From a virus: a stretch of DNA of 47,006 bases. The notes beneath the pieces were generated by a model. It had not been told where the DNA came from and did no database searches. It saw only the letters and a program-made list of their open reading frames with translations. Every line of letters starts with the position of its first letter. Within the stretch, counting starts at the first letter, position 1. This document shows, piece by piece, positions 17,079-43,833 of this stretch. A program made the translations under genes and the position numbers. Where the stretch lies: positions 1 through 47,006 of the IMG/VR virus record IMGVR_UViG_3300042876_000370; one strand, 5' to 3'.

Positions 17079-20000
17079 ATGACTGACAATTCGCAGAGCA
17101 AGACGCCCATTCTTGACCAATATTACAAAGACCAGGCCGCGAAAGATGCGGCTGCTACTGGCGCGCCGGCAGTCTCGAACAACCCGAACCCGCTGGGGAT
17201 CTATGAACCCGGCCAGGATATGGGACCGCTGCGCTACAGTCCTGAAGAGCTGGACTACTGGCAGAAGGAATATGCCAAGACCGGGGAGAGCATTGACGCG
17301 AACTGGCTGGGCAACCAGCAGCAGCTCATCTATGACTACCACATGGCGCGGCCGGCGGACTCGTATTGGGAAGAGCCAAGCACCCTGGCGCGCTGGGCTT
17401 TGCTCGATCAGAACCTGCCCAAGGAAGCGGCCCGCCCGGTCTGGATGCAGTCTGATGTGTTGCAAGGGCTGTACAACTACCTGAGCGAACAGAACGGCAA
17501 CAAGCCGTGGTATGAGTGGGAGAAGCTCAAGACGACCGACCCGGTGCGGATCTTATTGCAGCGCATGCCGCTGCCTGATACCGGGGATATGCCCGACTGG
17601 GAGAAGAAGGCGCAATCCATTTACGGCAACCTGCCGCCTGACATTCTGAACGCCATCAGCAGCCTGCCCGACCCGCAGAAGTGGGGCGAGCAGCGCGCGC
17701 TGACCAGCGAGCAGACCGCCAAGATCCGCGAGATCAATAACTTTATCGAAAACCCCACGGTGGAGCAGGGCACAGACGCCAACGGCAACCCGATAGAGAT
17801 GGTCGCCGGCATCTCCAAGGCCGAGTGGGATGCGATGGACCTGGGCCAGAAGGCCGAATATATTGCCATGTCTCCCACGTCACCCTATGCGGCCCTTGTT
17901 CAGGCGCCGGCCATTGGGGTAGGGATGGGCGCGGTAGGCAGCGTGCTGGAAAGCGTAGGCCTCAAGGCGTTGTTCTCTCCGCAAGGTCTCAAGAATGTGA
18001 TTGCGGGTGGCGCTAAGGGCTTGATCCCCGGGGTTGCGTTTGGGATTGCGATGACCGCGGCCCAGCAGTACCGGCCTATGGAAGCGCTGGGAGCGGACCC
18101 GGCTGGCGTCCAGGCGAAGGGCTGGTTTAAAGACCTGTTGACCTCCATGGGTTTCCGGGTGGCGCCAGATGCATCCTGGGAAGATGCGGCCATGGAACTG
18201 CTCAACCTGCCCATGAATGAGATCCAGAAGCAAATCGGCTGGGGTGTGATGAACGCTGCGGACCTCGGGAAGATGCTGCGCGGTGAAGCCCCGGACACGG
18301 CGACCTTTGAAAAGATGGTCGCGCCCGAAGACCGGGACACGCCCGAGAAATTCAAGCAGCAGTACGAGCTGTGGAAGAACGCGCGGCTCGAAGCATCGCG
18401 CGCCTTCTACCAGACCGACCCGTTCAAAAACCTGACGGCGCGCGGTGTCGAAGTGCGCCAGCCCGGCAGCAAGGAAGTAACCCAATGGTCGCCGGCCGAT
18501 CCTAATTCATCCGTGTCTGAGTACGTGCTGGATCAGATTGCGATTGACATTTATCACAAGCTGAACGCCGGCGAACCCCTGGCGCCGACTGAGCTGGCCT
18601 ATCAGCCCATCCTGCAAACCCTGTTTGGGGTGGGCGGGCAGACCTCCAACCTGATCGCCCAGGTGGTATTAGACCCGTCCGACTTGATCCCCAAAGGCAT
18701 CAGTATTGTCTCTTCGGAGGCGAGCAATATTGCGACCAGCGTGATCGCCGGCAAGACCCCGAACGCCAAGCTGTCGGCTGCCATGCTGGAAGCCAAGGGA
18801 CCATACAGCGGACTGAAGCAATACCAGGCTGATCTCAAGCGCACGCCCGTGAATGAAATCCTGGATAACTACGGCTGGTTTGAGCGCACCTTAGCCGGGA
18901 TCGATGAGACCGGGCAGCGGAAAGACCTGAACACCGTTCAGAAGGGGAATGCAATCAGCCAATTCTTCGGCAAGCTGGCCGGGCTGACCCCGGAAAGCCG
19001 CGTCTTCGAGGTGGTGCATACCACCTATAACAGCGTGCTCAATATGCTGGACAATTTCCGGCGCGACACCGGCGCCGACCCTGAGCAGATGGTGCAATTT
19101 ATTGATCGTATTTCGGCCCCGACGCCCGAGGCCGCGATTCGGATGGCGGCGCAGGCGGAGACCATTACGGTGCCTATGAAGGTAGGGGGAGAAACGGTTT
19201 CAACTCCCCTGCCCCGCCAGTTCGCAAGCCCCGAGCTGCAGCCGGCCTTGATTGCGCTCAAGGACCAGGAAGTAAAAGTCCACGACCTGCTGAGTGAATG
19301 GCGCAGCGCGGAACCGGCCCGGGATCTGGTACGGCGCGCGGCGGCTGCTTTGGAAATGGACGAGCACCAGGTCATGGCAACGATGCTGAAGGGTGGCACC
19401 GAGGCGCGCAGCCTGATCGACCTGGCGACCAAGAAGGGCATGGCGGACGCGGCCGGATTGGAAGGGGCGGCGAAAATCTTCTATGATCCCACCAACAAGG
19501 CCAGGAAGACCGCCTTTTCTTCTGAAGACTTCCAGGCGGATCTCTCGATCTTACTGGCAGAAGGCGCCGAGAAGTGGGCCATTGGTCACTTTGGGGTGAA
19601 GGAAATGGGCTGGATGAACAAGCTCAACAACCTGATGAAGAACGCGCAGGGGTTGGTGCTGTTCGACTATAACCCGGCCTATGCCCTGAACAATGGCATC
19701 AATAACCTTGTCACTCTGGCATGGGATGGGCTCTTAGGCAGCTTCCGAGGCCCAACCTACAGCCGGCTGCTGGAGCGCTTTGGCCGACCCAGCTTTACCG
19801 AATCAGGCTTGACCCCGGCTGAATATGGCACCGGGCAGGCCGAGGCGGGCCTGGGTGGGCGCAAGGGCAGGGCGCAGAGCATCGGCGAAGAGGTGCGCAA
19901 AACCCGCTGGGGGACTGGCCGCATCGCCGATGCTAATGAGTTCGTGGGTGGCGTGCGCGGCAAGCTGGGTTTATTCAATCGGCTCTCGGGCTGGATGGAG

Positions 20001-23000
20001 CGCCGGACCAGTCAGATCGCAGTGGCGACCGCCCTGGATGAGATGATGGGCAGGAAGTGGCGCGCGAGTGCCGACCCCAAGAGCGGGGGCTATCGCAAGC
20101 TGCCGGCGGATTTGCGCGCGGACCTGAACCGGATTGCGCCCGGGCTGGCGGATAAGCTGGAAAAGGCGCCGGCTCGTGGGCTGAACGTGCAGGAAGTGGA
20201 GCGCGAAATCTTCAGCCGCTGGAACCAACGCAGCGTGAAGGACGTGCTGAGCGAAGGCGAGTATAACCTGCTCTCCAAGTTCCCGGCTGTGCTGGAAGGT
20301 CTGGAGACCAAGTTGCGGACTGCGACCGATATGCGCGGGGTAGACCAGGCGATTGACGAGACCAAGACCGAGTTTCAGGACCAGGTAAAAGAACGCCTGG
20401 CGCAATCGACCCGGGCCATGGTCGAACAGGGCAAGGCCGACATTACCGTCGAGGGCACGCAGAAAATCTTAGACAAGATTGATGATGTAGTGCCGAACCT
20501 GATGGAGTTTTGGGGCAAGTATCAGGACGCCATGGGCGAGACCGCCGAGCGCGCGCGCAACGCCCCGACCGACGAGGAAGCTGACCGGATCTGGTTTCAA
20601 AGCAAACGGGAATGGAATCAAAACTGGCGCAACTTCGAGGTATTGCAGGCCGGCACCTGGCGGGGTGTGTTCGAGGGATTGGGCATCAGAAGCATGGACG
20701 CGGCCAACCCAGCGAACAAACCCTACTTTGATTTCATGCAGAGCATGCAGGATCTGCACGACCGGCACCAGGCTTATTTCGTGGTGAGAGACCGGGAGCT
20801 AACCCGCTTCTTTACCGCCAAGAAGAACAAGAACATCACCAAGCGCGACCTGTCCAATATTTGGGCGGACGTGCAGCGGATCAACAACGAGGAATATATC
20901 CGCATGGTGGCGGATGAAGACGCGATCCAGGCGGCTGCGGATGAGGCATTCGTCACCCAGTTTGACCAGGAACGGCCCGAGAGTAAGGGCAGCGCGGCCC
21001 AGTGGCGCAGCGCCATCCGTGACGTGCGCCGGCAGATGATGCTCTCCGAGATCCTTTACCGCGGGGGCAGCCTGCCCGCTGGATTGGTCAAGGAATGGGG
21101 TGTCACGCTTCGCCCTGAGATCGTGCAGGAGATCAACAGCCTGACCCTCAACCGGGCAGAATGGCTGATCCCAGGCAACGAGCGGCCCGGCATACAGAAA
21201 GGTTATGCCGACATTCGCCGGCGCTTCCTGCGGGAAATGCTGGACGCATCGAACGGCAACCCGCCCGGCAAACCAGTCGCCCCACCCCCGGCACCGACCA
21301 TGCCGCCGGCGACTCCAATCGTGCAAACTGCACAAAAAACGCAGCCAGCGGCCCCAGGATCGGCGCCTAGCCCGATTGCTGAAGCAAGCCCTGTACCGAT
21401 GACCCCGGCAGCGCAAACAGGCCCTACAGCGCCCGTCCTAGCGGCTCCTGGGGGCATTGATGCGGTGACCGGACTGCCACATTATGATTACGCCCAACCC
21501 AAACCGGTGGCGGTGGTGGATCTATACGACCGCGAGGGTGCGGCTCTCAATCAGAGCGAACGCATGAACGTCCTGGCGCAGACCATTGAAGCCCAGGGAA
21601 TCGGGCAAGCAGCCTGGTATGGTGATGGCAAGCTGGCGGTTGTGGTCTCGGATCTGGACGCCGCCCGGACTGCCTTGCAGAACCTGGCCGATACCCAGGA
21701 GGGCGCCTTTGTCTTCGGGCTGGGCGCGCGCGCGGTGGACGCCGAGATTGCCGCCGGCCGCTATAAGAAGATCAACCAGCCCCCCGAACGGCGCGCCGCT
21801 ACCCGCGAGGAACGCCTGCAGTGGCTGGCCACCCATGACCAACTGACCCGGCTGTGGAATAAACTGGCGTTTGATGGGGATGGCGGCCAGATCAAGGGCG
21901 ATTGGCAGGAACGGATTGAACTCAACCAGGCAATGGGCTTACCTGCCCCGGTTGTCAGCGTGTTGGACGTGCGCGGCTTGCATGCCACCAATAACGAGAT
22001 CGGTTATGACGCCGGCGATGCCTACTTAAAAGCGATTGGGAAAGCCTTCACGGATGAGGGTTTAGATGGCTACCGGACCGGCGGGGATGAATTTGCCGCA
22101 ATCTTTGACGACCCCGCCCAGGCCAAAGAAGCCATGGACCGGGTGATTGAACGCATCAATGGTGCGATAATTCAAGTAGGAGAGAAATACTATGTCGGAT
22201 CAGCAGCCCATTACGGGACCGGCGGAGACTTCAAAACCGCCTACGAAGGACAGCTCGCAGCCAAGCGCGCCGACCCGCGCGCCGCAGAGTTCGAGCGTGC
22301 CACCTACAAACTCAAACCCGCCAGTGAAAGTGATCTTGCCGCCCAAGGGCAGCCACCTGATACCGCGCGCCCAGGCGGAACGGCTGGGACTGATACCACC
22401 CCGGGACGCACCTACGGCGGAACCATCGAAGACCTTGACGCCGCCGAGCGCGCCCGAGTCGACGCCGCCCGCGCCAGCTTCGCCGCCGGCCTCAACCGAG
22501 AGCAACACTTTGCCAAGCTCAGCCCCCAAGAGCGAGTAGTCCGCGAGAGTGAGGACTTCCGCCAGGCTGCCGCCCGGTTGCTGGATGAGCTATCGGGAGG
22601 CCACCCCGAAAAAATAAAAGGTGGTCCAATCCTGGGATCGACCAACCCGGAATGGTACAGCCTGCTGTATGACAGTTTCAAGAAGAACGGGCAGAGCCTC
22701 AATAAAGAGCTGCTGCGCGATGCCCTGCAATCCATCATCGACAAAACCGAAACCGAGTTCTACGCCGCCCGGCGCAATAAAGCGTTGGGCGATCAGTATA
22801 TCAACGAGGCTGAAAGGCTGGTACTGGGTTCGCTCTCGGAGAATGAACCGGTGCAGTTGTGGCTCTCTCATCGCTATCGGGACGCCATGCTGTCCTTCGA
22901 TGCGGTCAATGAGCAGCTTAAGGCCGCGGGGCTGGAGCCTTACGATGTGCTGCGCGAGATGCAAGCCGCGGGCTTCGGCGAAGAGCAGGCCAACAATTTC

Positions 23001-26000
23001 TATAACGCCTACGTCGCCTACCTGGATGGCCGCGACCCGCTGCCCGGGCTGACCACCGAAGAAGCCCATGGACTGGTAGCAGGCATGCGCGCCGCCGACC
23101 TGGTGGAAGTGACCGCCAGTGGCGAGATCCGCACCCCCGATGACATTGAAGCCCTGATCCCTGAAAAGCAGGCCCTGGAAGAAAAGCAGCCCAGCCGCGA
23201 AGCCCTACGCAGCGCAGTCCGCAAGGCCGCGCATGAAGCCGGCTTTGACTACGACGATAAGCACCTGATCGCCAGCGTGAACAAATACCTGGAGATCCCC
23301 GAGGGGCGGGTAACGAGCGTGGACGACCTGACCCCGGAGATGATTGACGCCTGGGTAAGCGCGCGCTCGAAAGCCAGCAAGGAAGCCGAAGAGATCAAGC
23401 GGATTGCGATTGAACAGGCGCGCATCCTGGATGAAAACCTTGAGGCGATCCGCGCGAAGTACCCGGATGAGGCCCGCGCCCACGAGATCAAGGATCTGCT
23501 GCTTGATTTCTACGGCGACGAAGACTTCGCCCAGGCGAGCTGGGAAGATTTTGACCTGGTGACGCGCAACCTGGCAGCCGTGACCGGCGAGAGCGTGGAC
23601 GCGCTGCGGGAGAGGATCTTAGCCAGCGTGGGTGATATAGACCTGCCCGCGCACCTGGAACAGCTTGCCGAGCTGCCAGTACAGGAAGGCTTGACGCGCC
23701 GGCTGGATGAGGCGCGCAAGGCTTTACTTGAAGAAACCTGGCATGACCCTGTTGCGAAACGGTTTATTGAACGGTATGAGCAGGAGGGTTATTATCGCCC
23801 AACCTATACTAACGATGGAAATTTCGAGCTGCACCGGTCAGAATTTCCTTCGTTTGTTGGGCATGAGGCAGCCTGGGAAGAGTTCAAGCTGGCCCTGTCA
23901 GACCTGAAATGGTATGAGGAGACCGGCGAGATTGCGGCCAGCACGATGAAGAGCTACCGAGATCTGCTTAATCGTCGGCACTCGGGTGAGTTCTTATGGC
24001 AGGACAGCGAAGGCAAGGCCATGGTAGAGAAGGCCGTTCAGAGGTATGGAACGACTGAAGACTTCGGCCAGGCTGGGTACATTCTCCCTGATGGACGGTT
24101 GCTGAACCTGAGGCGGGCAGAGCGGGATTACTTGGAACATTCCGGCGTAGCTGCGCATTTGTTGGGGCGCAATAAGACAAGCGGAAACGCAGACATTCGA
24201 GACTTCCAACGCCAGACTAATGCCATCCGAATGGACGCCTCTTCACCCAGCGCAGGGAATGCTTTGATCTTTTTGGATATGGCTACTCGTCCAACACGCG
24301 CACAGATGCGGGCTATCGAAAATGGAATCGCGTACAGCCCACATAACTACTTCACAATCCAGTACGACACGCCGGGAGGCGGGTACGGTACCTTCGGGAC
24401 CACCAAGGCGAACGCCCTGGACGACCTTAACAAGATGGTCCGCCAACGGTTTGACAATGCCCTCTTCCAAGATCGCAACGGCGCCACCTTCTGGGATGAA
24501 CAAGGGCGCGCGCACATTCGCCTGATGCGAGATGCCAAGAGGGATAGCAACTTCTCCACCTGGCACCATGAGTTTTTCCATGCCCTGCTGCCTTTGCTGC
24601 CGGCGGATATGCTCAAGGTGTTCGAGAAATACCTGGCCGACGAGCATGGAATCAGTAACCTGCCCGAAGGTTGGCAGAACGGCACCAAGAACGCCAAGGC
24701 CAAGGAGATCTTAGCCCGGGCAAATGAGCGCTACCTGGTGGAAGGCAAGCACGTTTTGAACCTGCCCGCCCAGGTGGTGGCTGTGCTGGATAAGATCAAG
24801 ATCTACATGCTCAAGGTCTACCAGCAGGTGACAGGTCACTCGATTGATGTGCCGCTGCCTGACTACCTGACAGAGGTATTTGATCGGCTGCGCAAGGAAG
24901 AGGAAGTCAAGCCGGTTATCCCCGAGAAGTCGTTTGGTCGCATCAAGCTTGGACCCAACGAGTTTGTAGATATTACCGCCTCAAATAGTGCAGATTGGTA
25001 CGGGCGATACACCGAAATGCTTAGAGGGTACTCGGCTAAAGCTGCCTTTGCGATGGACAGCAGCCTGTCCGAGGCAAGCAAAAAACTGCATGCGGCTGGC
25101 GTGTGGAACGCTTACGAGCAGCTCAACGACTTGAGAAATGCGCTTCTTGATAGCGGGATCAAGAGAATAGCGATCCCAACAGACCCCCGCAATATGGGGT
25201 TAGCAGACACCCGCCAGGTAGCCGAACCTCCATTATCCCCCGAGCCTGTTGCAACTACCGCAACACCAGAAGGACAATTCAACCTGATCCCTGAGACCGA
25301 GGGTTGGCAGTTGCAGGCGCAGACCGCGCAGGCGCAGAAGTTCAACCCGGCGCGCGAAGATTTGCAATCGTCCCTCTTCGAGCTACCCCAGCCCGAGGGG
25401 ATTAAACCAAAACCAGCGCCAACTACCACGGACTTAGGCCCGCTATTTGCCAACCAGCCCGAGCCCGAACCCAGCCCCTGGGTCAAGCAGGCGCCGGTTG
25501 CCGAACCCGCACCCGACCGCCAGGCGCGCCTGATGACCGCCCTCACAGAGCGGATTGTCAGCCAGCAAGATTTGTTCAAAACGTCGCGGGACTTTGAAGA
25601 CTTCGCGCGCAGTTTTGGATTTGACCTGGACCGGGAAGCGGATCTCAATTATGCGTATGACCTGCTAGAAGGCTCATTCAATCTGTTGACCCGCCGGCTG
25701 CGGGCGAACATGGCCGGGCTGCCCCTGGTGGATCGCCTGACGCAACTGGCCGCCCTGGAAAAGCAGCTCGTGAAGGCGCGCCGGACCCTGCTCAAGAGCG
25801 AACTGCAGCAGTTCTCTACCCCCCTGACCCTGAGTGAAGCCGCGGGAGAAGCCGCCGACGTGCGCCCGGGTGACGTGATTTGGGAACCCACCGCCGGCAC
25901 CGGGAACCTGGTCAACCGCTTCGCGGACGATAAGAGCGTGAGTGTGCGCGTCAACGAGATCGACCCGCAGCGCCGCGAAGTGCTCAAGCTGATCGGTTTC

Positions 26001-29000
26001 AATCCGACTGACCTGGATCTTCTAAGTCCGAAATGGCTGATTGGCAGCGATAAGAAGCTGCTCAAGCCGAACGCCAGCGTTCAAATCACGAACCCGCCCT
26101 GGGGGGCTTACTCCACCGGGAAATACGGGCAGGCCATGCCGCACCCGATCAAGGGTATGAACGACTGGTCGCAGCGGTTTACCTACCTGATGATGGAACG
26201 CCTGGCGCCGGGTGGCCGATTCGTGGGCGTGATGCCCCTGAATTGGATGTATACTGTGGATAGAAGCTCGCGCGCCCTCAACGTCAAGAAGTCAGCCTTC
26301 TTGACCTACCTGGAAGAGAATTACAATGTGCGCGCCCTGATCGAAAGCCCAGCAGGTGCCTACGATCAACGCGCGACCGGGGTAGGATCTCTTCTCATCG
26401 TGGTCGATAAGACCCAAAACAGCCTCAAGGATAGTAATACCAGGCTGTACCGTTGGGGTGAGAGCGCCCCGAAAGACTGGGCCGAGTATGCGGACCTGAT
26501 CAACCAGATCCAAAAGCGCGACCCGGAGGAAGTAAAGAGAGGTCAAAATGCTGCCCGAGCAACCGGACTCTTCAGCGATAGGAGCTTCGTCCTTCCCACC
26601 AAGCAACAACCCACCGGCCCCGATGCCGCCGGAATTGCCGACCCAGCCGCCCGCCGAGGTGAGCGAACCGGCGACCCCGCCAACATTGGAAAGCCCATCG
26701 AGCAACCCGCCCGAACCGAACCCCCAGCAGAGCGAGAACCCGCTGGAGGATTACCTGTTCAGCGGCCCGATAGAGAAGCAGGATCTATCAACCCAAGACC
26801 TGGTAACGAATTATCTGGGATTGGGGAGCGAATTGGCGGACAGCCCGGAGGACGTGCAGCGGATGCTGAACAACTGCCAACCCCGCCAGAAGGTAACAAC
26901 GCCCCCGTGGTGGAAGGGCAAACCCCAGGCGTTCCGGGACCGCTGGAACCAGGAATACCCGAACCGAGTGGACGACCTGGCGGAGAGCAGCCCGCAGCTC
27001 TTACAGAAGACCTGGGAGTACGGCCTGTTGAGCTCGCCCCAGTCCCAGCCGCAGAGCCCAGCCGAGAAGATATTGACTACCAGCGCAAGTGGCAGGCAAC
27101 GATTGATGCAGTTGAGAGCGCTGGAACTTTTGCTGGATATGTGGGGAGAAGCCAGGCAAGGTTAGAGGCTGAAGGCTACCCGACCCACCACCACCCCAGC
27201 GTGGTGGTCGAAACCAAGGCACTCATGGGAGTGCCGTACCCCGAGCTTGAAGACGCATACCGCCCGACCGATGGGGTGATGAAAGCTTATCAGAGTGGCG
27301 CCCTTTCCATGGAAGGGCAGCTTGACGTTGTGTGGGCGGCGATCCAACAGAACGATAAGCATGGCATGGGGATGCTGGTGGCGGATGACGTGGGCATGGG
27401 CAAGAGCCGCAGCGCCGCCGCCTTCGCCCTGGACCGGATTGAACGCGGGCAGAAGATCGTGCTCGTTGTTACCAAGAACCCGGGCAACGTGCGCAACCTG
27501 ATGAACAACGAGTTTCCGGCGATCTTTGGGGAGCAAAAGACCCGCTTCGTGGATCTCTCGGGTAAGAACATGCCCGATGTGAAGAACAAGAAAGAAATCC
27601 CCATCCCCACCTATGACGAGCCGGCGGTGTACTTTATGAGCGCCACCGAGTTCGCCTCCTTCGGCAACAAACTCAAGGATCTGCCCGTTCAAAGCGTGAT
27701 CGTGGATGAAGCCCACACGTTTAAAAGCGTGGACGATACCAAGCAGGGCATTTTCTGGACCGGTCTCCATGAGAAATGGAACGCTGATGGCGTGAATTTC
27801 CTGTACCTGACCGCCACCCCCGCGACCGACCTGATGGAAATGAAATACCTGTATGGTTTGAAACTGTGGACCGTGGACGGTTTTGGGGATTGGCTGGGGG
27901 TGCTGACCGGCAAGATGAGCCCGGAACAGGCCAAGACCAAGGCCAAGGTTTTCAACGAGGCAGCGGCTTATCAGAAGCAATTGACCGAAGCGGCCGCGCC
28001 GGTCCTGACGAATGTGGAACCTTTGTTCGGCGGCAAAGAGTTGGGCTACAACTTTGACGACAATCTGTACTACCAGGAAGGTCGCCAAAAAGGAACCGGG
28101 AAACTGATCGCCAGTGACCGTTATGGCAGCCCGGTTGAGATTTACAGCGGTGATGCGACCATGGCCGCGATCATCGGGCAAACCTTGAGCGACATTCTGC
28201 AGCCAGGCGAAAGCGGGCAAATCTCTAAATATATGGTGGACTATTACAAGTCCCAGGCGATGCAGGCGATTGACGAGAAATTCCCCGCGCCCAAGATCGA
28301 CAAAGAGACCCGCGACGCCCTGAACACGGATGCCTCCGATGCCCTGGAACTGCTGGATAAGAAGGGTAAGAAGCGCTTCGGCGCCGGCCGGACCGCCTTC
28401 GAGAGCACCCTGCCCCCGGAGCACACCGAGCAGATCATGCGCGAGATGAAGCTGGGCGGCAGCTACATGAGCCGGGATATTGCCCGGAACGGGGTGGAGT
28501 TTGAGGCCAAGGAAATCAAGCTGACCCCCGAACAGAAACGCCGGCAGGATGAACGGATTGACTTCTACCGCCAGGTCATCGCAGCCTATCAGAAATGGGG
28601 CAAGTTGAACAAGCAGAAGAAGATGGACTTTGGGGTAATGGGGAAGATCCAGGACGATGCCAAGCGCGCTCTGTTTGACTACCGCCTGACCCAATCGCTG
28701 CCCGAGATCGACGCGGCGATTGCGCGCGGGGAGCAGGTGGTGATTGCGCTGGTCTCGGTGGGCGAAGTGGACCCCCTGCAAGGCGGGCACCTGCGTTCAG
28801 CAATCGATATGATCAACCACGAGGAATCGCACGAGACCGGCGATGGCACGTACAGCGACCCCGCGGACATACCCGAGGCCCAAGAGGAAAAAGCCAGGCT
28901 GCTGGAGCAGGCCGAAAAACTGGGCCTGGGCAGCCCGATCAAGCTGCTCGAAAGCAAGTACGGCGACCGGATTGGGTTTGTGACCGGCGAGGTCACGGAT

Positions 29001-32000
29001 AAAGCCCGCGCCTCTGCGATGACTGCCTTCCAGCGGAACAAGCTGGATGCTATCGTGATCTCCGGCGCCGGCAAGACCGGGATCAACCTGCACGACATTA
29101 CCGGCAAGCGGCGCATGCACCTGATGGTGGTGGACTTCGACTGGTCGGCCACCGAGTTTAAACAAGAGCTGGGCCGGGTAGACCGCACCGGGCAGAAGAG
29201 CGCGCCGAAAGTGACGGTCTTCCATACCGGGAACGCAGCCGAGCTGAAGTTTATCTCGACCATCACCAACCGCATGAAAGGGCTGGGCGCAACCTCTAAG
29301 GGCGGATCGGAATCGACCGGCACCAGCGCACTCAACGAGCAGTTTGAGCTGGGCTCGACCTACGACAAAGAAGCCCTCAATGAGATGTGGCGCAAGCTGC
29401 CCCGCCCGGATAAGCTGCTGTTCATGGATAAGTATTTCTACGATAACGGACAGCCCAAGGCCGAACTGAGGCAGACCGCCGAGGCAATCAAGAAGTTCAC
29501 CATGGCGCTGCAAAGCATCAGCCTGGATAAGGCCAATCAACTCGTAAAACTCTGGATGGATGAGCGCGCCAAGTTTACCGAGTTGGAAGCCGGGGCTGCG
29601 GCAGTCAAGAAACAGATGAGCTCAGGCGACGTGCTGCGCACGACCGAACTGGGACCGAACCTGACCCTGACCGAGGCGCGCGACGCGACCGGGCACCGTT
29701 TTGGGGTGGTCTCGGGGGTACTTACCCCGCAGATGAACAAGCTGGCCAGCGCCTTCGGCAGCACAGACAGCGAATTTGTGAATGGCGAATGGCGCCCGAA
29801 ACAATGGCGGGAGTGGATCAACTTTACCAATACGACCAACAATGAGAAAGTCTCGGGCCTGGTCATCCCCCCAGGAAAGATTGAAACCATTGCGGCCATG
29901 TACGGCACCAGCATCAAGGCCAACCGCAGCATAGCGACCGCCCTGGAAGACATCAAGGCCGGCGATAAGCTGCCGATCGTGGGCGCGGATATGAATGAGT
30001 GGACCCTGCGCCTGGGCACGCTGGGCGCGCGCAAGGGCAAGATCGTGATTGAAGGCGCGCGCATGGCACAGAAGAACCCGCTGATGAACAACGGCGCGCG
30101 CTATGATGCGGTTGGATCGTTCTTCTATGTGCCCGAGGAAAAGCTACAAGACTTCCTGCACCGCTTCCCGCTGCGCGAAGAGACGCCGCCGGGAGCACTC
30201 TACCAGGAGGCAGAAGCCCCAAGCGTTCCGCCTGGCTCGCGCCGGATGGCAGCGAACCCAGCCGATGACATTCGCGCTGTGATGACTGGGCAGGCAAAGC
30301 TAGAAGACTATGGCCCGAATGTGCAAAAGTTTATTCAGGCGGGTATCGCTCAGTTTGTCTCTTCTTACGAGCGAAAAGCAGGCACCCCCGAATGGATGGA
30401 ATGGTTTAAGCCAACCTACGAGGCATACAAAGCGCGCCAGCAGCCAGCTACCCCGGCTGTCAATGCCCCGCTGGGCACCGCCGAAAGCATGAGCCAACCA
30501 CCGACCGATACCGCCCAAATGATGGGCTACCTCTCGGAGGTTGGGCCAGTCCTGGAGAAAGCGCGCGGAGAGTTCGGCAAACAGCGCGCCACCCCTAACA
30601 GCGTGATGAACCTGGAGCAAGCCTTACCGCCCGAGACCATGAAGAAAGTACGCGGCTGGGCGGGCGGGGTCTATGCGGACCTGGCCGACACCAAGTACCA
30701 GGCGATCCAACACGCCAAGATGCGGCGGGATGCCGCTTTGCTGGACTACACCAAGCGGACCGGCTTCGATAACCTGCTGGGCGCGATCTTCCCGTACTCC
30801 TTCTGGTACACCCATTCGATGGTCAACTGGGCGATCCGGGCGCTCGAACGCCCGAGCACCCTGATCAACTACATGCGCATCCGCAACCTGCAAAACCGCC
30901 AGCAGAAAGAAGCAAACAGCCCGGGCCGGCTGGAAGGCAAGATTGAGCTGCCGTTCCTCTCCCAGGCATTGGGCGGGCGCTTCTTTGTGGACCCCATGCG
31001 CCAGATTTACCCGTTCGAGCAGATGCTGCGACCGTTTGAGAACTTCGCGGCTGACAAGAATCAGGCCGAGAAGCGCGCGGCGCAGCTCATCACGTACCAG
31101 GCGGAGAACGAAACCATCACCAGCGCCGAGGCGCAGACCGCCATCACCAGCAAGGCCGGTCCGCTGTGGGAGCGGGCCTATAACCAGGCGGAGCTGGAGA
31201 TCAAGGACGTGCAGCCCGGCGAATTGTCTTCTCAGTGGCAGCCCGGGCAGTCGCGGGATTGGGTGGATCTGGCGTTCCAGGTCTTATCTCCCAGCCTGCC
31301 CCTTTCTTTGGGCTATAACCTGGCGACTGGCCGGCAGATGGGGAGTCTCCCCGTTCAACGCTTCGTGCAGAACGTGACCTCCCCCTTCGGGATCGGCGGA
31401 CCGCGCGGGTTTATGCTGACCCGAGATAAGTTTGACGATTATAGAGAGGACAGAGAGTTGGCAAACATGGCCGGCGAAGGGCTGATTTCAACGGATGAAG
31501 CCAAGCGCGCCATGATCGACCGGGTTGGACCGGCCTTCGCGCAGGCCCAGCAGCGGGTAGCCAAGACCACCAGCGTGCAATACTGGCTGTCTTCTCTCGC
31601 GGCGGACCTGTACCCGGAGGGCGAACAGCACAACCGCGAACTGCACGACGAATATCTGAAGGCCCTGCAGCAGAAGGTGATGGGCGATAAGCAGGCCTTG
31701 AATAAGTTCTATGACGAGTACCCCGAGTATGAGGCCCGCAACGCCTCTTTCGATGAACCCGAGCCGCGCCTACGCCAAATGCTGATCTCGCAGATTTGGG
31801 ACAAATACGGCGAACTGAACAAGCTCAACCAGGACGCAGCGCAGAAACAACTGGGCGAGAAATTCGGCAATGCGTTTGTCAACAAAGAGACCCGCTCTTA
31901 TGACAGCATCGACACGCAGACCCTGGGCTTTTGGGCCAAGACCCTGGGCGCCAAGACCCCGGCGAAAGTGGCCGCCCCTGAGACCCCCTTGCAAGGGGTG

Positions 32001-32894
32001 CCAGCGGCCACCAGCGCGAACTATGACGCCTTCACCGCGGCCAAAGCCCAGGCCTTCCCGGGGCTGGACGCCCTCTATAAAATCTACTGGACTGCCAAAC
32101 CCGGAGAGCGCACCCTGATCGAAAAGGGCCACCCGGAGATGCAGAAGTACATGAGTTGGAAGACCCAATACCTGGCGCAACACCCGGACCTGATTCCCTA
32201 CGAGATCAGTGAAACCAGCAGCCTGTACGGCGCGCCGGCGCAGGTCCAGCAGTATGTTTATCAATACTGGGCCGGACGCGACCAGCGCTATCCGGGCATC
32301 ATGGACACGCAGGAAAAGTATTTCTCCTTCAGCGACAAAGCCGCGAAGAAGGCCTACCTCACGGCCCACCCCGAGTTATCGGAATATTGGGACTGGCGCA
32401 AGCAGGTTGCCGCGCAGATGCCAACCGCAGCGCCATACATCTTCAGCGCCGAGACCCTGGCCGGGATGATCCTGGGCACCAGCGGCAGCAGCGGGGGCAG
32501 TAGTGGCGGCAAGAGCGCGCCGCAGGTGGACGTACCGGCTCAATTGCGCCGGGTGGTGGTGGAGCATGCCAACGCCGGGACCAAGCTCAGTCTCGGGATT
32601 GAGAGCGAGACTCGCGCGCTGATGGCGAAGGTTGGGGTAAGCGGCTCAATGGAAACCTTCTGGCGGGATATGCTGCCGCAGATCCAACCCCAGGAGCACC
32701 CCCCGGTACTGTCTCAAGACGAGTTAGCCCAAATCCCCCCCGAACTGACCCGGCAACTGACCGCCCTGAAATATGGCGGGAAACCGCTGGGAGCGGGCGG
32801 GCTGGCGCAGGTGGATGCGCTGCGTAAGAAGTTGAACATTCCGACCGACGCGGAAGGCTTCTTACAGGTCTACCTGCTGCCGGCGCTTCAATAA
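17079..32894 (+). CDS. Giant polyvalent protein (5271 aa): GGDEF, metallopeptidase, DarB-like methyltransferase and helicase
   Basis: One uninterrupted frame from ATG 17079 (GGAG 7 bases upstream) covers a third of the genome. Domains by residue: helical N-terminus with a Gly/Ala-rich hydrophobic stretch (268-331); Pro/Ala linker (1395-1460); degenerate GGDEF-like domain (1461-1560, DAVTGLPHYD and WYGDGKLAVVV); GGDEF domain (1585-1735, THDQLTRLWNKLAF, LDVRGLHATNN, RTGGDEF at 1666-1672); polyvalent-associated domain (about 2330-2420, AGYILPDGRLLNL and RPTRAQM); zincin motif HEFFH at 2497-2501; adenine methyltransferase (2908-3100, QQFSTP, EPTAGTGNL at 2936, NPPW at 3005); SF2 helicase of strawberry-notch type (3400-4060, DVGMGKS to 3443, DEAH at 3543, GRVDRTGQ at 4032); hydrophobic IFPYSFWY at 4570; two C-terminal repeats (about 4993-5052 and 5071-5130). 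Methyltransferase plus helicase is the make-up of P1 DarB, a virion anti-restriction protein. Position between portal and scaffold suggests packaging and ejection with DNA. Confidence 0.88.
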   Translation: MTDNSQSKTPILDQYYKDQAAKDAAATGAPAVSNNPNPLGIYEPGQDMGPLRYSPEELDYWQKEYAKTGESIDANWLGNQQQLIYDYHMARPADSYWEEPSTLARWALLDQNLPKEAARPVWMQSDVLQGLYNYLSEQNGNKPWYEWEKLKTTDPVRILLQRMPLPDTGDMPDWEKKAQSIYGNLPPDILNAISSLPDPQKWGEQRALTSEQTAKIREINNFIENPTVEQGTDANGNPIEMVAGISKAEWDAMDLGQKAEYIAMSPTSPYAALVQAPAIGVGMGAVGSVLESVGLKALFSPQGLKNVIAGGAKGLIPGVAFGIAMTAAQQYRPMEALGADPAGVQAKGWFKDLLTSMGFRVAPDASWEDAAMELLNLPMNEIQKQIGWGVMNAADLGKMLRGEAPDTATFEKMVAPEDRDTPEKFKQQYELWKNARLEASRAFYQTDPFKNLTARGVEVRQPGSKEVTQWSPADPNSSVSEYVLDQIAIDIYHKLNAGEPLAPTELAYQPILQTLFGVGGQTSNLIAQVVLDPSDLIPKGISIVSSEASNIATSVIAGKTPNAKLSAAMLEAKGPYSGLKQYQADLKRTPVNEILDNYGWFERTLAGIDETGQRKDLNTVQKGNAISQFFGKLAGLTPESRVFEVVHTTYNSVLNMLDNFRRDTGADPEQMVQFIDRISAPTPEAAIRMAAQAETITVPMKVGGETVSTPLPRQFASPELQPALIALKDQEVKVHDLLSEWRSAEPARDLVRRAAAALEMDEHQVMATMLKGGTEARSLIDLATKKGMADAAGLEGAAKIFYDPTNKARKTAFSSEDFQADLSILLAEGAEKWAIGHFGVKEMGWMNKLNNLMKNAQGLVLFDYNPAYALNNGINNLVTLAWDGLLGSFRGPTYSRLLERFGRPSFTESGLTPAEYGTGQAEAGLGGRKGRAQSIGEEVRKTRWGTGRIADANEFVGGVRGKLGLFNRLSGWMERRTSQIAVATALDEMMGRKWRASADPKSGGYRKLPADLRADLNRIAPGLADKLEKAPARGLNVQEVEREIFSRWNQRSVKDVLSEGEYNLLSKFPAVLEGLETKLRTATDMRGVDQAIDETKTEFQDQVKERLAQSTRAMVEQGKADITVEGTQKILDKIDDVVPNLMEFWGKYQDAMGETAERARNAPTDEEADRIWFQSKREWNQNWRNFEVLQAGTWRGVFEGLGIRSMDAANPANKPYFDFMQSMQDLHDRHQAYFVVRDRELTRFFTAKKNKNITKRDLSNIWADVQRINNEEYIRMVADEDAIQAAADEAFVTQFDQERPESKGSAAQWRSAIRDVRRQMMLSEILYRGGSLPAGLVKEWGVTLRPEIVQEINSLTLNRAEWLIPGNERPGIQKGYADIRRRFLREMLDASNGNPPGKPVAPPPAPTMPPATPIVQTAQKTQPAAPGSAPSPIAEASPVPMTPAAQTGPTAPVLAAPGGIDAVTGLPHYDYAQPKPVAVVDLYDREGAALNQSERMNVLAQTIEAQGIGQAAWYGDGKLAVVVSDLDAARTALQNLADTQEGAFVFGLGARAVDAEIAAGRYKKINQPPERRAATREERLQWLATHDQLTRLWNKLAFDGDGGQIKGDWQERIELNQAMGLPAPVVSVLDVRGLHATNNEIGYDAGDAYLKAIGKAFTDEGLDGYRTGGDEFAAIFDDPAQAKEAMDRVIERINGAIIQVGEKYYVGSAAHYGTGGDFKTAYEGQLAAKRADPRAAEFERATYKLKPASESDLAAQGQPPDTARPGGTAGTDTTPGRTYGGTIEDLDAAERARVDAARASFAAGLNREQHFAKLSPQERVVRESEDFRQAAARLLDELSGGHPEKIKGGPILGSTNPEWYSLLYDSFKKNGQSLNKELLRDALQSIIDKTETEFYAARRNKALGDQYINEAERLVLGSLSENEPVQLWLSHRYRDAMLSFDAVNEQLKAAGLEPYDVLREMQAAGFGEEQANNFYNAYVAYLDGRDPLPGLTTEEAHGLVAGMRAADLVEVTASGEIRTPDDIEALIPEKQALEEKQPSREALRSAVRKAAHEAGFDYDDKHLIASVNKYLEIPEGRVTSVDDLTPEMIDAWVSARSKASKEAEEIKRIAIEQARILDENLEAIRAKYPDEARAHEIKDLLLDFYGDEDFAQASWEDFDLVTRNLAAVTGESVDALRERILASVGDIDLPAHLEQLAELPVQEGLTRRLDEARKALLEETWHDPVAKRFIERYEQEGYYRPTYTNDGNFELHRSEFPSFVGHEAAWEEFKLALSDLKWYEETGEIAASTMKSYRDLLNRRHSGEFLWQDSEGKAMVEKAVQRYGTTEDFGQAGYILPDGRLLNLRRAERDYLEHSGVAAHLLGRNKTSGNADIRDFQRQTNAIRMDASSPSAGNALIFLDMATRPTRAQMRAIENGIAYSPHNYFTIQYDTPGGGYGTFGTTKANALDDLNKMVRQRFDNALFQDRNGATFWDEQGRAHIRLMRDAKRDSNFSTWHHEFFHALLPLLPADMLKVFEKYLADEHGISNLPEGWQNGTKNAKAKEILARANERYLVEGKHVLNLPAQVVAVLDKIKIYMLKVYQQVTGHSIDVPLPDYLTEVFDRLRKEEEVKPVIPEKSFGRIKLGPNEFVDITASNSADWYGRYTEMLRGYSAKAAFAMDSSLSEASKKLHAAGVWNAYEQLNDLRNALLDSGIKRIAIPTDPRNMGLADTRQVAEPPLSPEPVATTATPEGQFNLIPETEGWQLQAQTAQAQKFNPAREDLQSSLFELPQPEGIKPKPAPTTTDLGPLFANQPEPEPSPWVKQAPVAEPAPDRQARLMTALTERIVSQQDLFKTSRDFEDFARSFGFDLDREADLNYAYDLLEGSFNLLTRRLRANMAGLPLVDRLTQLAALEKQLVKARRTLLKSELQQFSTPLTLSEAAGEAADVRPGDVIWEPTAGTGNLVNRFADDKSVSVRVNEIDPQRREVLKLIGFNPTDLDLLSPKWLIGSDKKLLKPNASVQITNPPWGAYSTGKYGQAMPHPIKGMNDWSQRFTYLMMERLAPGGRFVGVMPLNWMYTVDRSSRALNVKKSAFLTYLEENYNVRALIESPAGAYDQRATGVGSLLIVVDKTQNSLKDSNTRLYRWGESAPKDWAEYADLINQIQKRDPEEVKRGQNAARATGLFSDRSFVLPTKQQPTGPDAAGIADPAARRGERTGDPANIGKPIEQPARTEPPAEREPAGGLPVQRPDREAGSINPRPGNELSGIGERIGGQPGGRAADAEQLPTPPEGNNAPVVEGQTPGVPGPLEPGIPEPSGRPGGEQPAALTEDLGVRPVELAPVPAAEPSREDIDYQRKWQATIDAVESAGTFAGYVGRSQARLEAEGYPTHHHPSVVVETKALMGVPYPELEDAYRPTDGVMKAYQSGALSMEGQLDVVWAAIQQNDKHGMGMLVADDVGMGKSRSAAAFALDRIERGQKIVLVVTKNPGNVRNLMNNEFPAIFGEQKTRFVDLSGKNMPDVKNKKEIPIPTYDEPAVYFMSATEFASFGNKLKDLPVQSVIVDEAHTFKSVDDTKQGIFWTGLHEKWNADGVNFLYLTATPATDLMEMKYLYGLKLWTVDGFGDWLGVLTGKMSPEQAKTKAKVFNEAAAYQKQLTEAAAPVLTNVEPLFGGKELGYNFDDNLYYQEGRQKGTGKLIASDRYGSPVEIYSGDATMAAIIGQTLSDILQPGESGQISKYMVDYYKSQAMQAIDEKFPAPKIDKETRDALNTDASDALELLDKKGKKRFGAGRTAFESTLPPEHTEQIMREMKLGGSYMSRDIARNGVEFEAKEIKLTPEQKRRQDERIDFYRQVIAAYQKWGKLNKQKKMDFGVMGKIQDDAKRALFDYRLTQSLPEIDAAIARGEQVVIALVSVGEVDPLQGGHLRSAIDMINHEESHETGDGTYSDPADIPEAQEEKARLLEQAEKLGLGSPIKLLESKYGDRIGFVTGEVTDKARASAMTAFQRNKLDAIVISGAGKTGINLHDITGKRRMHLMVVDFDWSATEFKQELGRVDRTGQKSAPKVTVFHTGNAAELKFISTITNRMKGLGATSKGGSESTGTSALNEQFELGSTYDKEALNEMWRKLPRPDKLLFMDKYFYDNGQPKAELRQTAEAIKKFTMALQSISLDKANQLVKLWMDERAKFTELEAGAAAVKKQMSSGDVLRTTELGPNLTLTEARDATGHRFGVVSGVLTPQMNKLASAFGSTDSEFVNGEWRPKQWREWINFTNTTNNEKVSGLVIPPGKIETIAAMYGTSIKANRSIATALEDIKAGDKLPIVGADMNEWTLRLGTLGARKGKIVIEGARMAQKNPLMNNGARYDAVGSFFYVPEEKLQDFLHRFPLREETPPGALYQEAEAPSVPPGSRRMAANPADDIRAVMTGQAKLEDYGPNVQKFIQAGIAQFVSSYERKAGTPEWMEWFKPTYEAYKARQQPATPAVNAPLGTAESMSQPPTDTAQMMGYLSEVGPVLEKARGEFGKQRATPNSVMNLEQALPPETMKKVRGWAGGVYADLADTKYQAIQHAKMRRDAALLDYTKRTGFDNLLGAIFPYSFWYTHSMVNWAIRALERPSTLINYMRIRNLQNRQQKEANSPGRLEGKIELPFLSQALGGRFFVDPMRQIYPFEQMLRPFENFAADKNQAEKRAAQLITYQAENETITSAEAQTAITSKAGPLWERAYNQAELEIKDVQPGELSSQWQPGQSRDWVDLAFQVLSPSLPLSLGYNLATGRQMGSLPVQRFVQNVTSPFGIGGPRGFMLTRDKFDDYREDRELANMAGEGLISTDEAKRAMIDRVGPAFAQAQQRVAKTTSVQYWLSSLAADLYPEGEQHNRELHDEYLKALQQKVMGDKQALNKFYDEYPEYEARNASFDEPEPRLRQMLISQIWDKYGELNKLNQDAAQKQLGEKFGNAFVNKETRSYDSIDTQTLGFWAKTLGAKTPAKVAAPETPLQGVPAATSANYDAFTAAKAQAFPGLDALYKIYWTAKPGERTLIEKGHPEMQKYMSWKTQYLAQHPDLIPYEISETSSLYGAPAQVQQYVYQYWAGRDQRYPGIMDTQEKYFSFSDKAAKKAYLTAHPELSEYWDWRKQVAAQMPTAAPYIFSAETLAGMILGTSGSSGGSSGGKSAPQVDVPAQLRRVVVEHANAGTKLSLGIESETRALMAKVGVSGSMETFWRDMLPQIQPQEHPPVLSQDELAQIPPELTRQLTALKYGGKPLGAGGLAQVDALRKKLNIPTDAEGFLQVYLLPALQ
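22192..22539 (+). CDS. Candidate nested gene 1 (+1 frame, inside the giant gene)
   Basis: A 115-aa Pro/Ser/Thr-rich ORF (MSDQQPITGPAETSKPP...) lies in the +1 frame where the giant protein leaves its GGDEF domain and enters a linker. AGGAGA sits 8-9 bases before the ATG. Codons in this frame favour G and C at the third position, but so do those of the giant frame here, so codon use does not decide. The product looks disordered except for PRAQAERLGLIPPRD. Evidence for translation is the ribosome site and the shared relative frame with nested gene 2. Confidence 0.35.
   Translation: MSDQQPITGPAETSKPPTKDSSQPSAPTRAPQSSSVPPTNSNPPVKVILPPKGSHLIPRAQAERLGLIPPRDAPTAEPSKTLTPPSAPESTPPAPASPPASTESNTLPSSAPKSE
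26548..27165 (+). CDS. Candidate nested gene 2 (+1 frame, inside the giant gene)
   Basis: A 205-aa ORF in the +1 frame begins at ATG 26548 with AGAGAGGT about 5 bases upstream. Residues 1-60 are Pro/Ser-rich; residues 65-165 look folded and helical (NPLEDYLFSGPIEKQDLST, SPEDVQRMLNNC, WWKGKPQAFRDRWNQEYP). From about 26735 to 27100 this frame uses the genome's usual codons (CTG, GAG, AAC, CAG, CCG), while the giant frame over the same bases uses many GGA, CCA, CGA, GCA and TTA codons and encodes a Gly/Pro-rich linker between the methyltransferase and helicase domains. That contrast suggests the nested frame is under selection. Function unknown. Confidence 0.55.
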   Translation: MLPEQPDSSAIGASSFPPSNNPPAPMPPELPTQPPAEVSEPATPPTLESPSSNPPEPNPQQSENPLEDYLFSGPIEKQDLSTQDLVTNYLGLGSELADSPEDVQRMLNNCQPRQKVTTPPWWKGKPQAFRDRWNQEYPNRVDDLAESSPQLLQKTWEYGLLSSPQSQPQSPAEKILTTSASGRQRLMQLRALELLLDMWGEARQG

Positions 32895-32998: not shown

Positions 32999-33703
32999 AT
33001 GGAGAACCTGGCTAAAAGCTTATTTGGGCAGCAACCGGCCGGCCAGCCGGGCAACGCTTCGCAGCCTGTAACCCAGGGCTCGGAGCCAGCCGCCGCGAGT
33101 GAGACCCAAGCACCCCCGGACCTGACCACGCTGCTGCGTGAGATCCAAGAGATCAAGAGCAAGCTTCCTGAGACTGTTAAGTCAGCCATCCAGGAAAACA
33201 ACCGCAGCCAGCAAGCCGCCCGGGATCGTCAGACAGCGGAAATTGATAAACGGTTTAAAGCGCGCATGGCCGAGATCCAACAGATCACCGGCGCCCAGGC
33301 CACCCAAGAGCAGGCAACCCGCCTGCGCGAGAACGTGGCTCAAGAAGTCGTCGCTGAAAATCCGTCCCAGCCTTCAACGCCGGCACCCGGCCAGGTGCCC
33401 ACGAGTGGAGCGGGACAATCAACCGCTGACTGGAAGCTCCGCATGCTGGACCTGATCCAGAAGGAAACCGGCGTCACCCTGGCGCCCGCTGACCCCGAGT
33501 TGCAAGCGCAGCAGGACAGCGACGACCCGGTAGCGCTGATGACCACACTCCGAGCGGCGGCCACCGCGAAGAAAGAACGAACCCAACGGGAGGCCCAGGG
33601 GCGCAGCGGTCCATTGGACAGCAGCGCGCCGGCGGGCAACCCCATCGCAAACATAACCGACCGGGATCAACTTTGGAAGCTGGCCCGGCAGAAAAGGAGC
33701 TAA
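32999..33703 (+). CDS. Scaffolding protein
   Basis: The 234-aa protein directly precedes the capsid gene. It is low in hydrophobics and rich in Gln, Ala and Pro, with a central helical coiled coil (about 40-115, LLREIQEIKSKLPETVKSA) and a Pro linker, then a C-terminal helix-rich part ending DQLWKLARQKRS, a basic helix like those by which scaffolds bind capsid protein. Length and position suit a phage scaffold. RBS AAGGAG is 6 bases before the ATG. Confidence 0.65.
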   Translation: MENLAKSLFGQQPAGQPGNASQPVTQGSEPAAASETQAPPDLTTLLREIQEIKSKLPETVKSAIQENNRSQQAARDRQTAEIDKRFKARMAEIQQITGAQATQEQATRLRENVAQEVVAENPSQPSTPAPGQVPTSGAGQSTADWKLRMLDLIQKETGVTLAPADPELQAQQDSDDPVALMTTLRAAATAKKERTQREAQGRSGPLDSSAPAGNPIANITDRDQLWKLARQKRS

Positions 33704-33706
33704 CCT

Positions 33707-34714
33707 ATGGCGGGAATCACATTAACGCAGCTCGCCCAGGTGCAGAAAGACCCGGAAGTAAAGTTCATCGAACTGTCCCTCCTGCGGGAGAGCCGGGTGA
33801 TGAACTACATCTCTTTCGAGAATGTCAGCAACCTGAAGGTAGCCGCGCAGTATTGGCAAAAATTGCCGACTGGCGGAAGCTGGCGCCAGGTCAACGCAGG
33901 CTACACCTCTGCGGAAGACGGCCAGCTCGCCGAAGCCGAAGAGTATTTGTACGCCTTCGGTGGTGACATCACGTTTGACACGGTTCTTGAGAAGATCAAG
34001 GACGTGGCGCGTGATCCCATCCAATTGCAGGTGGAGGGCAAATTGCGCTCCATGGCCCTGCAGTGGAATGACAAACTGATCAACGGCGATGTTGGGACAG
34101 AACCCAACTCGTTCGACGGTTTGAAAAAGCGGGTAGCCGGTCTCCCCACTCGCCAGACCGTGTATTGGGCGGCCTCCAACGCCGCACCCCTGGACCCCAC
34201 CGCCAGCGCCGCGAACGCCCGCAGCTTCTTCAACCGGCTGCGCACCGCAAAACGCTACTGCAACGGCGGGCAGGTCGATGCGATCCTGTGCAATGAAGAT
34301 TTCGTCCTGGGGATCGCTGCCGCGCTGCTCTACCTGCAATCGGCCGGCAATTACCTCACGATCACCAAGGATCAATTCGATCTGGAAGTGGTCAGTTATC
34401 AGGGCATCCCCCTGGTAGACATGGGGTACAAAGAGGACCTCTCGACCGAGATCCTCACCACCACCGAAACCGCGGGCGACGCCGGCGCCGATTCGATGAG
34501 CCAATACTTTGTCGCCTTTAATAACAAAGAAGGCGTGCATGGCATTCAGCTCAACGATTTCACCGCCTACGATCCGCTGAAGGGCGCGGAAATGGAGAGC
34601 AAGCCCTCCAAACTGAAGCGGATTGACTGGTGGAACGGGATTGCCAACTTCGGCACGCGCTCCATGGTGCGCGCCCGCAACTTGAGCAACCTGGCCGGGT
34701 TCACGGAGAAATAA
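33707..34714 (+). CDS. Major capsid protein (HK97-fold type)
   Basis: The 335-aa protein has the course of an HK97-fold capsid protein: N-terminal helix (TLTQLAQVQKDPEVKFIEL), E-loop strand region with WRQVNAGYTSAEDG, spine helix region (VLEKIKDVARDPIQLQVEG), then LINGDVGTEPNSFDGLKKR, a segment common in podovirus-like capsids, and C-terminal A-domain strands (VVSYQGIPLVDMG). It follows the scaffold gene with a 3-base gap, and late promoter 2 upstream would give high expression. Confidence 0.8.
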   Translation: MAGITLTQLAQVQKDPEVKFIELSLLRESRVMNYISFENVSNLKVAAQYWQKLPTGGSWRQVNAGYTSAEDGQLAEAEEYLYAFGGDITFDTVLEKIKDVARDPIQLQVEGKLRSMALQWNDKLINGDVGTEPNSFDGLKKRVAGLPTRQTVYWAASNAAPLDPTASAANARSFFNRLRTAKRYCNGGQVDAILCNEDFVLGIAAALLYLQSAGNYLTITKDQFDLEVVSYQGIPLVDMGYKEDLSTEILTTTETAGDAGADSMSQYFVAFNNKEGVHGIQLNDFTAYDPLKGAEMESKPSKLKRIDWWNGIANFGTRSMVRARNLSNLAGFTEK

Positions 34715-35173: not shown

Positions 35174-35893
35174 ATGCCCAGTGTATTTTTAGGCACGCCT
35201 ACCACCCGCGACTTCAGCCCGCAGTATGTCACCAGCCTTTTCCGCACCCAGCTCAAGGGCGCGCTGGCCTTTCATACCCTGGTCGGCCAGGCCATTGAAA
35301 TTGGCAGAAACCGGATTGTAGAGACCTTTCTTGCCAATAAGATGGACTACCTCTTGATGCACGACAGTGATGCCACCTGGCACCCAGGCGCGGTGCAGCG
35401 ATTAGTAGAGCGCGGGCTGCCAGTGGTAACGGGCGTGATCTTCAAGCGCAGCCTCCCCACGGTGCCGACGATCGGCCGCGATGTGGGGCCAAGCCCAAGC
35501 GATGAGCGCAATCACCTCTACAGTTTTGCCGACACCATCAACCAGATCCAGCGGGTCGTAGTGCGCGAGAAGATTGGACCCGAGACTCCCAATGAGCTGC
35601 TGCTGCCGAAACACCCGGACGACCTGCAAGAGATCGACGGTTGCGGCGCGCACTTCTGCCTGATCCGGCGGGACGTGCTGGAGACAATCGGCAAACCCTG
35701 GTACCGCGCGACCGGGACCAACGCCGGCGAGGACTTTGATTTCTGCCGGCGGGTGAAGGCGGCTGGCTTTCCGCTGTACGTAGATTACAGCGTCTTCACC
35801 GGGCATGTGCTCGGGCCGAGCCTGGAGCTGGGCCTGCGCGAGTTTCTGCTGTTCTCGGACCATAAGGAGATCAACACGCTATGGATGGCTTAA
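35174..35893 (+). CDS. Glycosyltransferase family 2-like protein
   Basis: The 239-aa protein has a GT-A-like pattern: MDYLLMHDSDATWHPGAVQRL, with a DSD that can serve as the metal-binding DxD, then GLPVVTGVIFKR, GCGAHFCLIRRDVLE, and TNAGEDFDFCRRVKAAGFPLYV, where ED precedes a helix as in GT2 acceptor sites. It lacks transmembrane segments. It is followed by two membrane-protein genes. Phage-borne GT2 enzymes usually modify host surface glycans or phage proteins; here the gene lies inside the structural operon, which suggests late action or virion glycosylation. Confidence 0.65.
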   Translation: MPSVFLGTPTTRDFSPQYVTSLFRTQLKGALAFHTLVGQAIEIGRNRIVETFLANKMDYLLMHDSDATWHPGAVQRLVERGLPVVTGVIFKRSLPTVPTIGRDVGPSPSDERNHLYSFADTINQIQRVVVREKIGPETPNELLLPKHPDDLQEIDGCGAHFCLIRRDVLETIGKPWYRATGTNAGEDFDFCRRVKAAGFPLYVDYSVFTGHVLGPSLELGLREFLLFSDHKEINTLWMA

Positions 35894-43810: not shown

Positions 43811-43833
43811 ACCCCTCCATACAAGAGTTCTAT

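Follow-up and report, generated by a model that had tools for sequence, protein, structure and literature searches.

Giant polyvalent proteins of uncultured podovirus-like phages share a conserved scaffold with one hypervariable cargo slot

Our results suggested that the 5271-aa protein encoded by the phage DNA analysed here (the window, the whole 47,006-nt stretch of IMG/VR record IMGVR_UViG_3300042876_000370) is the helical scaffold of a group of uncultured podovirus-like phages, with one slot for cargo, and that it would act as an ejection protein delivering this cargo; we put the probability of this reading at roughly 0.7. The preliminary description of this DNA had proposed a polyvalent protein, and the protein is indeed one as Iyer et al. 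(2017) use the term, with several unrelated activities in a single chain encoded among the late virion genes. The occurrence of GGDEF, an SNF2-type ATPase, an adenine methylase and a zincin in one prophage giant was known already (PMC5512222). The conserved scaffold with its one hypervariable slot is new, and we found no description of it in the literature; the first reading missed this anatomy because relatives are needed to see it. Polyvalent proteins have been known as lists of domains, and a constant scaffold with a defined slot makes of them a comparative system for cargo.

The giant gene is a single open frame covering about 34% of a genome of about 46.7 kb, in agreement with the initial account of one frame of about 15.8 kb taking a third of the genome. 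It lies in the following block of late genes:

12881-14293, + strand: terminase large subunit, TerL (phrog_979, E 2.5e-15)
14290-16047, + strand: portal-position gene, named from its position (22% by tblastn to the MW202608 gene at this position)
17079-32894, + strand: giant polyvalent/scaffold gene, single open frame with ATG start, 5271 aa
32953-32977, + strand: strong terminator-like hairpin, 11-bp stem just 3' of the giant gene, recognised by consensus match
32999-33703, + strand: scaffold-position gene preceding the MCP gene, Gln/Pro-rich, named from its position
33707-34714, + strand: major capsid protein, MCP (phrog_212, E 9e-38)

The window is from a temperate phage. Its first and last 300 nt are 96% identical without gaps (1-310 against 46697-47006), and because its ends overlap in this way the record is a near-complete, terminally redundant genome. 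Note that this complete or near-complete genome is closed by strain variants that differ slightly, in spite of its classification as linear. The gene had been placed between portal and scaffold; its location after TerL and before MCP holds by PHROG matches, and the portal and scaffold names come from position. The portal-position gene had no match in PHROGs, Pfam or, by profile search, the PDB. Two genes of the tail region (37582-38340 and 38344-40968) were likewise without PDB relatives in profile searches, and because of this the podovirus tail genes could not be named. In T7 the internal core genes follow the capsid gene, whereas here the giant gene precedes it.

When the giant was compared with GenBank phages by tblastn, one metagenomic podovirus genome (MW202608, plus four copies) was matched in two separate places, aa 826-1317 and aa 4523-5121 of the giant. 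Both matches fall in one 2156-aa protein, whose gene follows the portal-position gene and precedes the scaffold/MCP genes. The giant therefore corresponds to this protein plus an insertion of about 3,000 residues. A profile made from the two sequences retrieved three more viral contigs, and a four-sequence profile retrieved 38 loci with the C-terminal conserved part (C-core); the enlarged C-core alignment brought in no new contigs. The giant is divided as follows:

19491-21164, + strand: N-core, conserved scaffold part 1, aa 805-1362 (profile A3, relatives at E 1e-28 to 1e-264)
21165-30518, + strand: hypervariable cargo slot between N-core and C-core, aa 1363-4480 (3118 aa)
30519-32453, + strand: C-core, conserved scaffold part 2, aa 4481-5125 (profiles A1/A2/A12), containing the start of the C-terminal repeats

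The scaffold is common to about 35 uncultured phages. By the N-core and C-core profiles, 32 distinct members carry both cores in one ORF, and in the relatives such ORFs measure 1801-7021 aa. Without the slot, complete ORFs keep to about 1.64-2.26 thousand residues; the slot itself ranges from 105 to 4995 aa across the 32 members, and that of the window ranks third, the larger relatives being a 5469-aa protein (42.8 kb contig) and a 7021-aa protein (86.7 kb contig). Moreover, the order TerL, portal-position gene, core protein, scaffold gene and MCP recurs in most of the relatives in which it is visible. The MW202608 protein (Podoviridae sp. ctptF532, UOF79210.1) has the same scaffold (C-core 34%, N-core 24%) and the same gene order, with a slot of about 396 aa in which no enzyme was recognised; the C-core of the relative L015 is 46% identical to that of the window.

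The cores match no Pfam family, and in PHROGs nothing convincing was found (hits for 2 of 36 rows, E 0.005 at best). All isolated phages of the GenBank phage collection lack the core, plasmids gave no C-core match, and in the genome contigs collection single-sequence patterns detected no C-core relatives. The AlphaFold2 (AF2) model of the scaffold stretch of L026 (1183 aa, 36-row alignment, pLDDT 77.7) consists almost entirely of helices, the longest of 77 residues. The first long stretch of low confidence in this model (558-595) is located at the slot junction. This model gave no significant Foldseek match in the PDB or BFVD (none with E <0.1). Predicted membrane segments were weak or absent in many members. 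We also observed that the C-terminal tail of the giant (32340-32750) repeats a motif of about 40-60 aa, R..(F/Y)PG...Q..Y....HPEL..YW.WR, whose copy number is variable and reaches 3-4 in relatives (L021, L022, L033, L043, L049).

The slot of the window contains the following domains and linkers:

21240-21488, + strand: Pro/Ala-rich linker (25% Pro), left border of the cargo, aa 1388-1470
21744-22193, + strand: GGDEF domain (PF00990), aa 1556-1705, motif GGDEF at 1668
22548-22793, + strand: small slot domain 'STN..WY', aa 1824-1905, found in 13 members and always within the slot
23175-23387, + strand: small slot domain 'VNKY', aa 2033-2103, in about 12 members and within the slot wherever a slot is defined
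24471-24848, + strand: zincin-type metallopeptidase with HExxH (aa 2497-2501) and Glu 2543 as third ligand
25623-26573, + strand: N6-adenine DNA methylase, aa 2849-3165, motifs STP, EPTAGTGNL and NPPW (3005) intact
26559-27098, + strand: Pro/Gly/Ala-rich linker, aa 3161-3340
27186-29558, + strand: Strawberry-notch-type SF2 ATPase/helicase, aa 3370-4160, GMGKS, DEAH and GRVDRTGQ intact
29550-30248, + strand: domain C-terminal to the helicase, aa 4158-4390, with a homologue in L029 (phmmer E 1e-24)

At least five catalytic modules had been counted in the preliminary description; GGDEF, zincin, methylase and helicase stand, and these four are the ones supported. Pfam profiles bore out the families named there, with matches to GGDEF, N6_Mtase and helicase families. 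The GGDEF match (aa 1584-1694) reached E 6e-7 in the whole protein and 2e-8 on the fragment, with 29.8 bits against a cut-off of 23.8; the last third of the PF00990 profile was without a match. The signature residues (the Asp in the first strand, the Asn, a further Asp and the GGDEF motif) line up with those of 4urs, a solved diguanylate cyclase, and the RxxD inhibitory site is absent on inspection of the sequence. The related domain of L025 reads SGDEF, so the predicted GGDEF-type cyclase activity may not be general. Other GG[DE]EF strings, in L021 and L022, were rejected as GGDEF domains, having no Pfam hit.

The zincin HExxH was matched in 14 relatives, and in the resulting 15-member alignment (A5) both His, the Glu and the downstream Glu are invariant. 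In the AF2 model two strands are followed by the HExxH helix and then by the helix bearing the Glu, with a local pLDDT of 80-92 and an overall value of 64; this model had no Foldseek match below E 0.001. A second HExxH (aa 3914) was set down to chance: it falls within the helicase, and the homologous L029 helicase does not conserve it. The methylase matched PF02384 (N6_Mtase) with E 3e-4, at the cut-off on the fragment and weakly in the long chain, and phrog_9133 with E 8e-16, and it has a homologue in L029. The helicase matched AAA_34 (PF13872, E 1e-15) and Helicase_C_4 (PF13871, E 1e-20), both above cut-off, which are the two halves of Strawberry-notch-type ATPases.

The methylase and helicase had also been described as DarB-like. 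The architecture bears this out, an adenine methylase (gamma class) with an N-terminal TP motif and an NPP motif followed by an SF2 ATPase being common to P1 DarB and the window. The Pfam scans gave no LPD36 hit on the N-terminal side of the methylase. The similarity to P1 DarB itself is marginal, with blastp giving 23% and E 1.6e-4 for the methylase and E 0.007 for the helicase, and a profile search giving no hit. Moreover, P1 DarB is a stand-alone gene of 2255 aa, whereas here the pair sits inside a structural protein and the ATPase is of the Strawberry-notch type.

Cargo in the relatives was identified by Pfam searches of the slots, and the seeds so obtained were then searched over the whole proteins. 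Every catalytic domain that could be placed relative to both cores was inside the slot, and the cargo seeds matched only within it wherever both cores were present. Pfam identified ART-PolyVal in the slots of L019, L020, L044 and L045, PBECR5 together with ddrB-ParB in L033, RadC in L024, a methylase with a Strawberry-notch ATPase in L029, and ddrB-ParB, GGDEF and a weak SNF2 in the 7021-aa protein. In some slots of relatives nothing was recognised, and the protein persists almost without cargo, with slots of 105-134 aa. All these cargoes are polyvalent-protein domain types (Iyer et al. 2017, PMC5512222). Note that the 7021-aa member (L051/L052, G004, on the 86.7 kb contig), in which the GGDEF-like domain reads SGDEF and the helicase is SNF2-like, is one of the largest phage ORFs met in this analysis.

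The cargo is far more variable than the scaffold around it. Among large-slot members the median alignable fraction was 13% for the slots and 93% for the C-cores. The C-cores of L004 and L005 are 86% identical, but their slots are only 44-61% alignable: one has an ART-like stretch where the other has the STN..WY stretch, and the differing segment is bounded by the shared VNKY stretch and a shared 'YT.VADIPEDVA' stretch. The L004 segment contains 'LYRGEG...WWTTDIEKAKKYG', whose likeness to ART motifs was judged by eye. The core of the window is sister to that of L015 (support 98/96), and their slots have barely anything in common (5%). The best match to the window's cargo is instead L029, over 40% of the slot, with the methylase-helicase 33% identical. 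A core clade joining the window and L029 was rejected (p-AU 0.004), as was one joining it with L025, which also has GGDEF (p 3e-9). Since these clades were rejected despite the likeness of the cargo, the histories of cargo and scaffold thus differ. As read from the sequences, the comparison shows that cargo has been exchanged, or differentially lost, between lineages.

The zincin goes with large slots. HExxH is present in 13 of the 16 slots longer than 800 aa, the members without it being L024, L029 and L045, and in none of the 16 slots of 400 aa or less; 0.43 would be expected from shuffled slots. A Fisher test of HExxH against slot size (P 3e-6), which treats the members as many independent events, was set aside because the core tree needs only two changes. 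Slot size changes just twice on this tree, and the association therefore represents a few events and not 32 independent ones. It fits a releasing or processing role, which has already been proposed for the zincins of the polyvalent class (PMC5512222). We also observed a short-slot pair, L018/L050, inside the large-slot part of the tree; compared with L020, this pair likely represents a recent joint loss of cargo and zincin, a natural deletion.

Known systems resemble the giant in part. The Acetonema longum prophage protein WP_004096050.1 contains GGDEF, a SWI2/SNF2-type ATPase, an adenine methylase, a zincin and ART (PMC5512222). No ART domain was found in the window protein, whose Strawberry-notch ATPase is the rarer type according to the same paper; the likeness given here is that of the domain sets listed in the paper. 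The ejection protein gp16 of T7 is largely helical, and mosaic enzyme domains are known in the ejection-protein class (PMC8954989). Like the T7 gp16 and P22-type ejection proteins, the giant is large and helical, and its gene belongs to the virion block of a short-tailed phage; unlike them, its gene lies between the portal and capsid genes, few membrane segments are predicted, and the family carries up to 5 kaa of extra cargo. The virion RNA polymerase of N4 is also a giant podovirus virion protein with a zincin, of the polyvalent class (PMC5512222). In contrast to N4, the window protein showed no RNA polymerase family when scanned against Pfam, PHROGs and NCBIfam, and short-slot members lack the peptidase. 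Finally, T4 Ip1-Ip3 are variable anti-restriction proteins delivered with the DNA (PMC12373910); they are separate small genes with a packaging leader, whereas in the window the cargo is inside one scaffold.

Could the giant simply be an ordinary polyvalent protein, a loose string of domains whose flanks are further large-polyvalent-protein-associated domains? Its domain set matches the Acetonema protein, and zincin, ART, ParB, PBECR and methylase-SNF2 are hub domains in the same survey (PMC5512222). However, throughout the phage group there is a single slot in a constant position, with the N-core on one side and the C-core on the other; the cores are without a Pfam family or a convincing PHROG, and the existence of cargo-poor members already disfavours a loose string, so we consider this explanation unlikely. 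It is rather more doubtful that the protein is in the virion but stays there as an assembly or maturation factor, with the zincin as head protease and the methylase marking progeny DNA. The late-gene position and the presence of the zincin in most large-cargo members would suit such a factor, and P1 DdrB is cleaved before packaging (PMC5512222); however, many members have neither the zincin nor any of the other enzymes, which argues that the enzymes are not needed for assembly, and ART, ParB, PBECR and GGDEF cargo would better suit action on the host.

A tape-measure protein, or another tail-length protein with inserts, is very improbable. The protein is very long and helical, and no separate tape-measure gene was seen among the late ORFs scanned, but in every member checked its gene precedes that of the capsid protein, its length varies from 1801 to 7021 aa, and MW202608 is recorded as Podoviridae. 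We give next to no credence to an assembly artefact or an accidental fusion of separate genes. The GenBank phage collection is without a similar full-length ORF; however, the frame is uninterrupted, and the GC content at the third codon position is 0.65-0.78 in every segment of the ORF bar the Pro/Ala linkers, and therefore the entire ORF looks coding. Another IMG/VR contig, probably of the same virus and possibly from the same sample, is 100% identical across 19.6 kb, the relatives carry N- and C-core in one ORF, and an independent phage, L029, has the methylase-helicase in the same slot.

Taken as an ejected scaffold with a cargo slot, the protein would be located near the portal inside the capsid and would leave with the DNA as an internal (ejection) virion protein, and the slot, which looks like an interchangeable cargo site for proteins codelivered with the DNA, would supply enzymes that act in the first minutes after infection. 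As has been proposed for DarB, the methylase-ATPase would modify the incoming DNA and so protect it from restriction; the GGDEF domain would alter or mimic host nucleotide signals; and the zincin would release the cargo, either from the scaffold or from the zincin itself. Its target may be its own chain rather than host proteins. No link to a known ejection protein was found by fold or by sequence (Foldseek against the PDB and BFVD, PHROGs). The full version, in which the whole group of short-tailed phages uses a helical ejection chassis that threads up to about 5,000 residues of interchangeable enzymes in one slot through the portal, to be freed by the zincin, is a possibility to which we give slightly less than even odds. 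If it is true, the slot would be a list of the functions that a phage requires immediately after entering its host. The anatomy would make testable the delivery of giant multi-enzyme proteins through the portal, release by the zincin, and the order in which host pathways such as restriction and nucleotide signalling are attacked. Moreover, the scaffold family would be an unannotated virion component in a fairly widespread phage group.

Other features of the genome were also observed. Four genes of antirestriction or modification type (4871-6331, 7828-8577, 9140-9886 and 10091-11332) match DNA methyltransferases (phrog_363 and phrog_67, both additional to that of the giant), a restriction-alleviation protein resembling Lar (phrog_599) and the PAPS-reductase family (phrog_424). 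The phage thus devotes much of its coding capacity outside the giant to DNA modification and antirestriction. An integrase gene (42848-43974, - strand) adjoins a tRNA-Val(CAC) in which the two strands of the acceptor stem, 5' and 3', fail to pair, the rest looking intact; this site is probably an attP that contains ~69 nt from the 3' part of the host tRNA gene. The 30-mer of its anticodon arm had no exact match in the genome contigs collection. Two 45-nt direct repeats, 192 nt apart (3838-4074), lie inside the replication-initiation gene and are possibly origin repeats. Finally, a glycosyltransferase-like gene and a gene for a hydrophobic, probably membrane, protein (35174-36812) directly follow the MCP gene inside the structural block, and L005 also has extra genes after its MCP.
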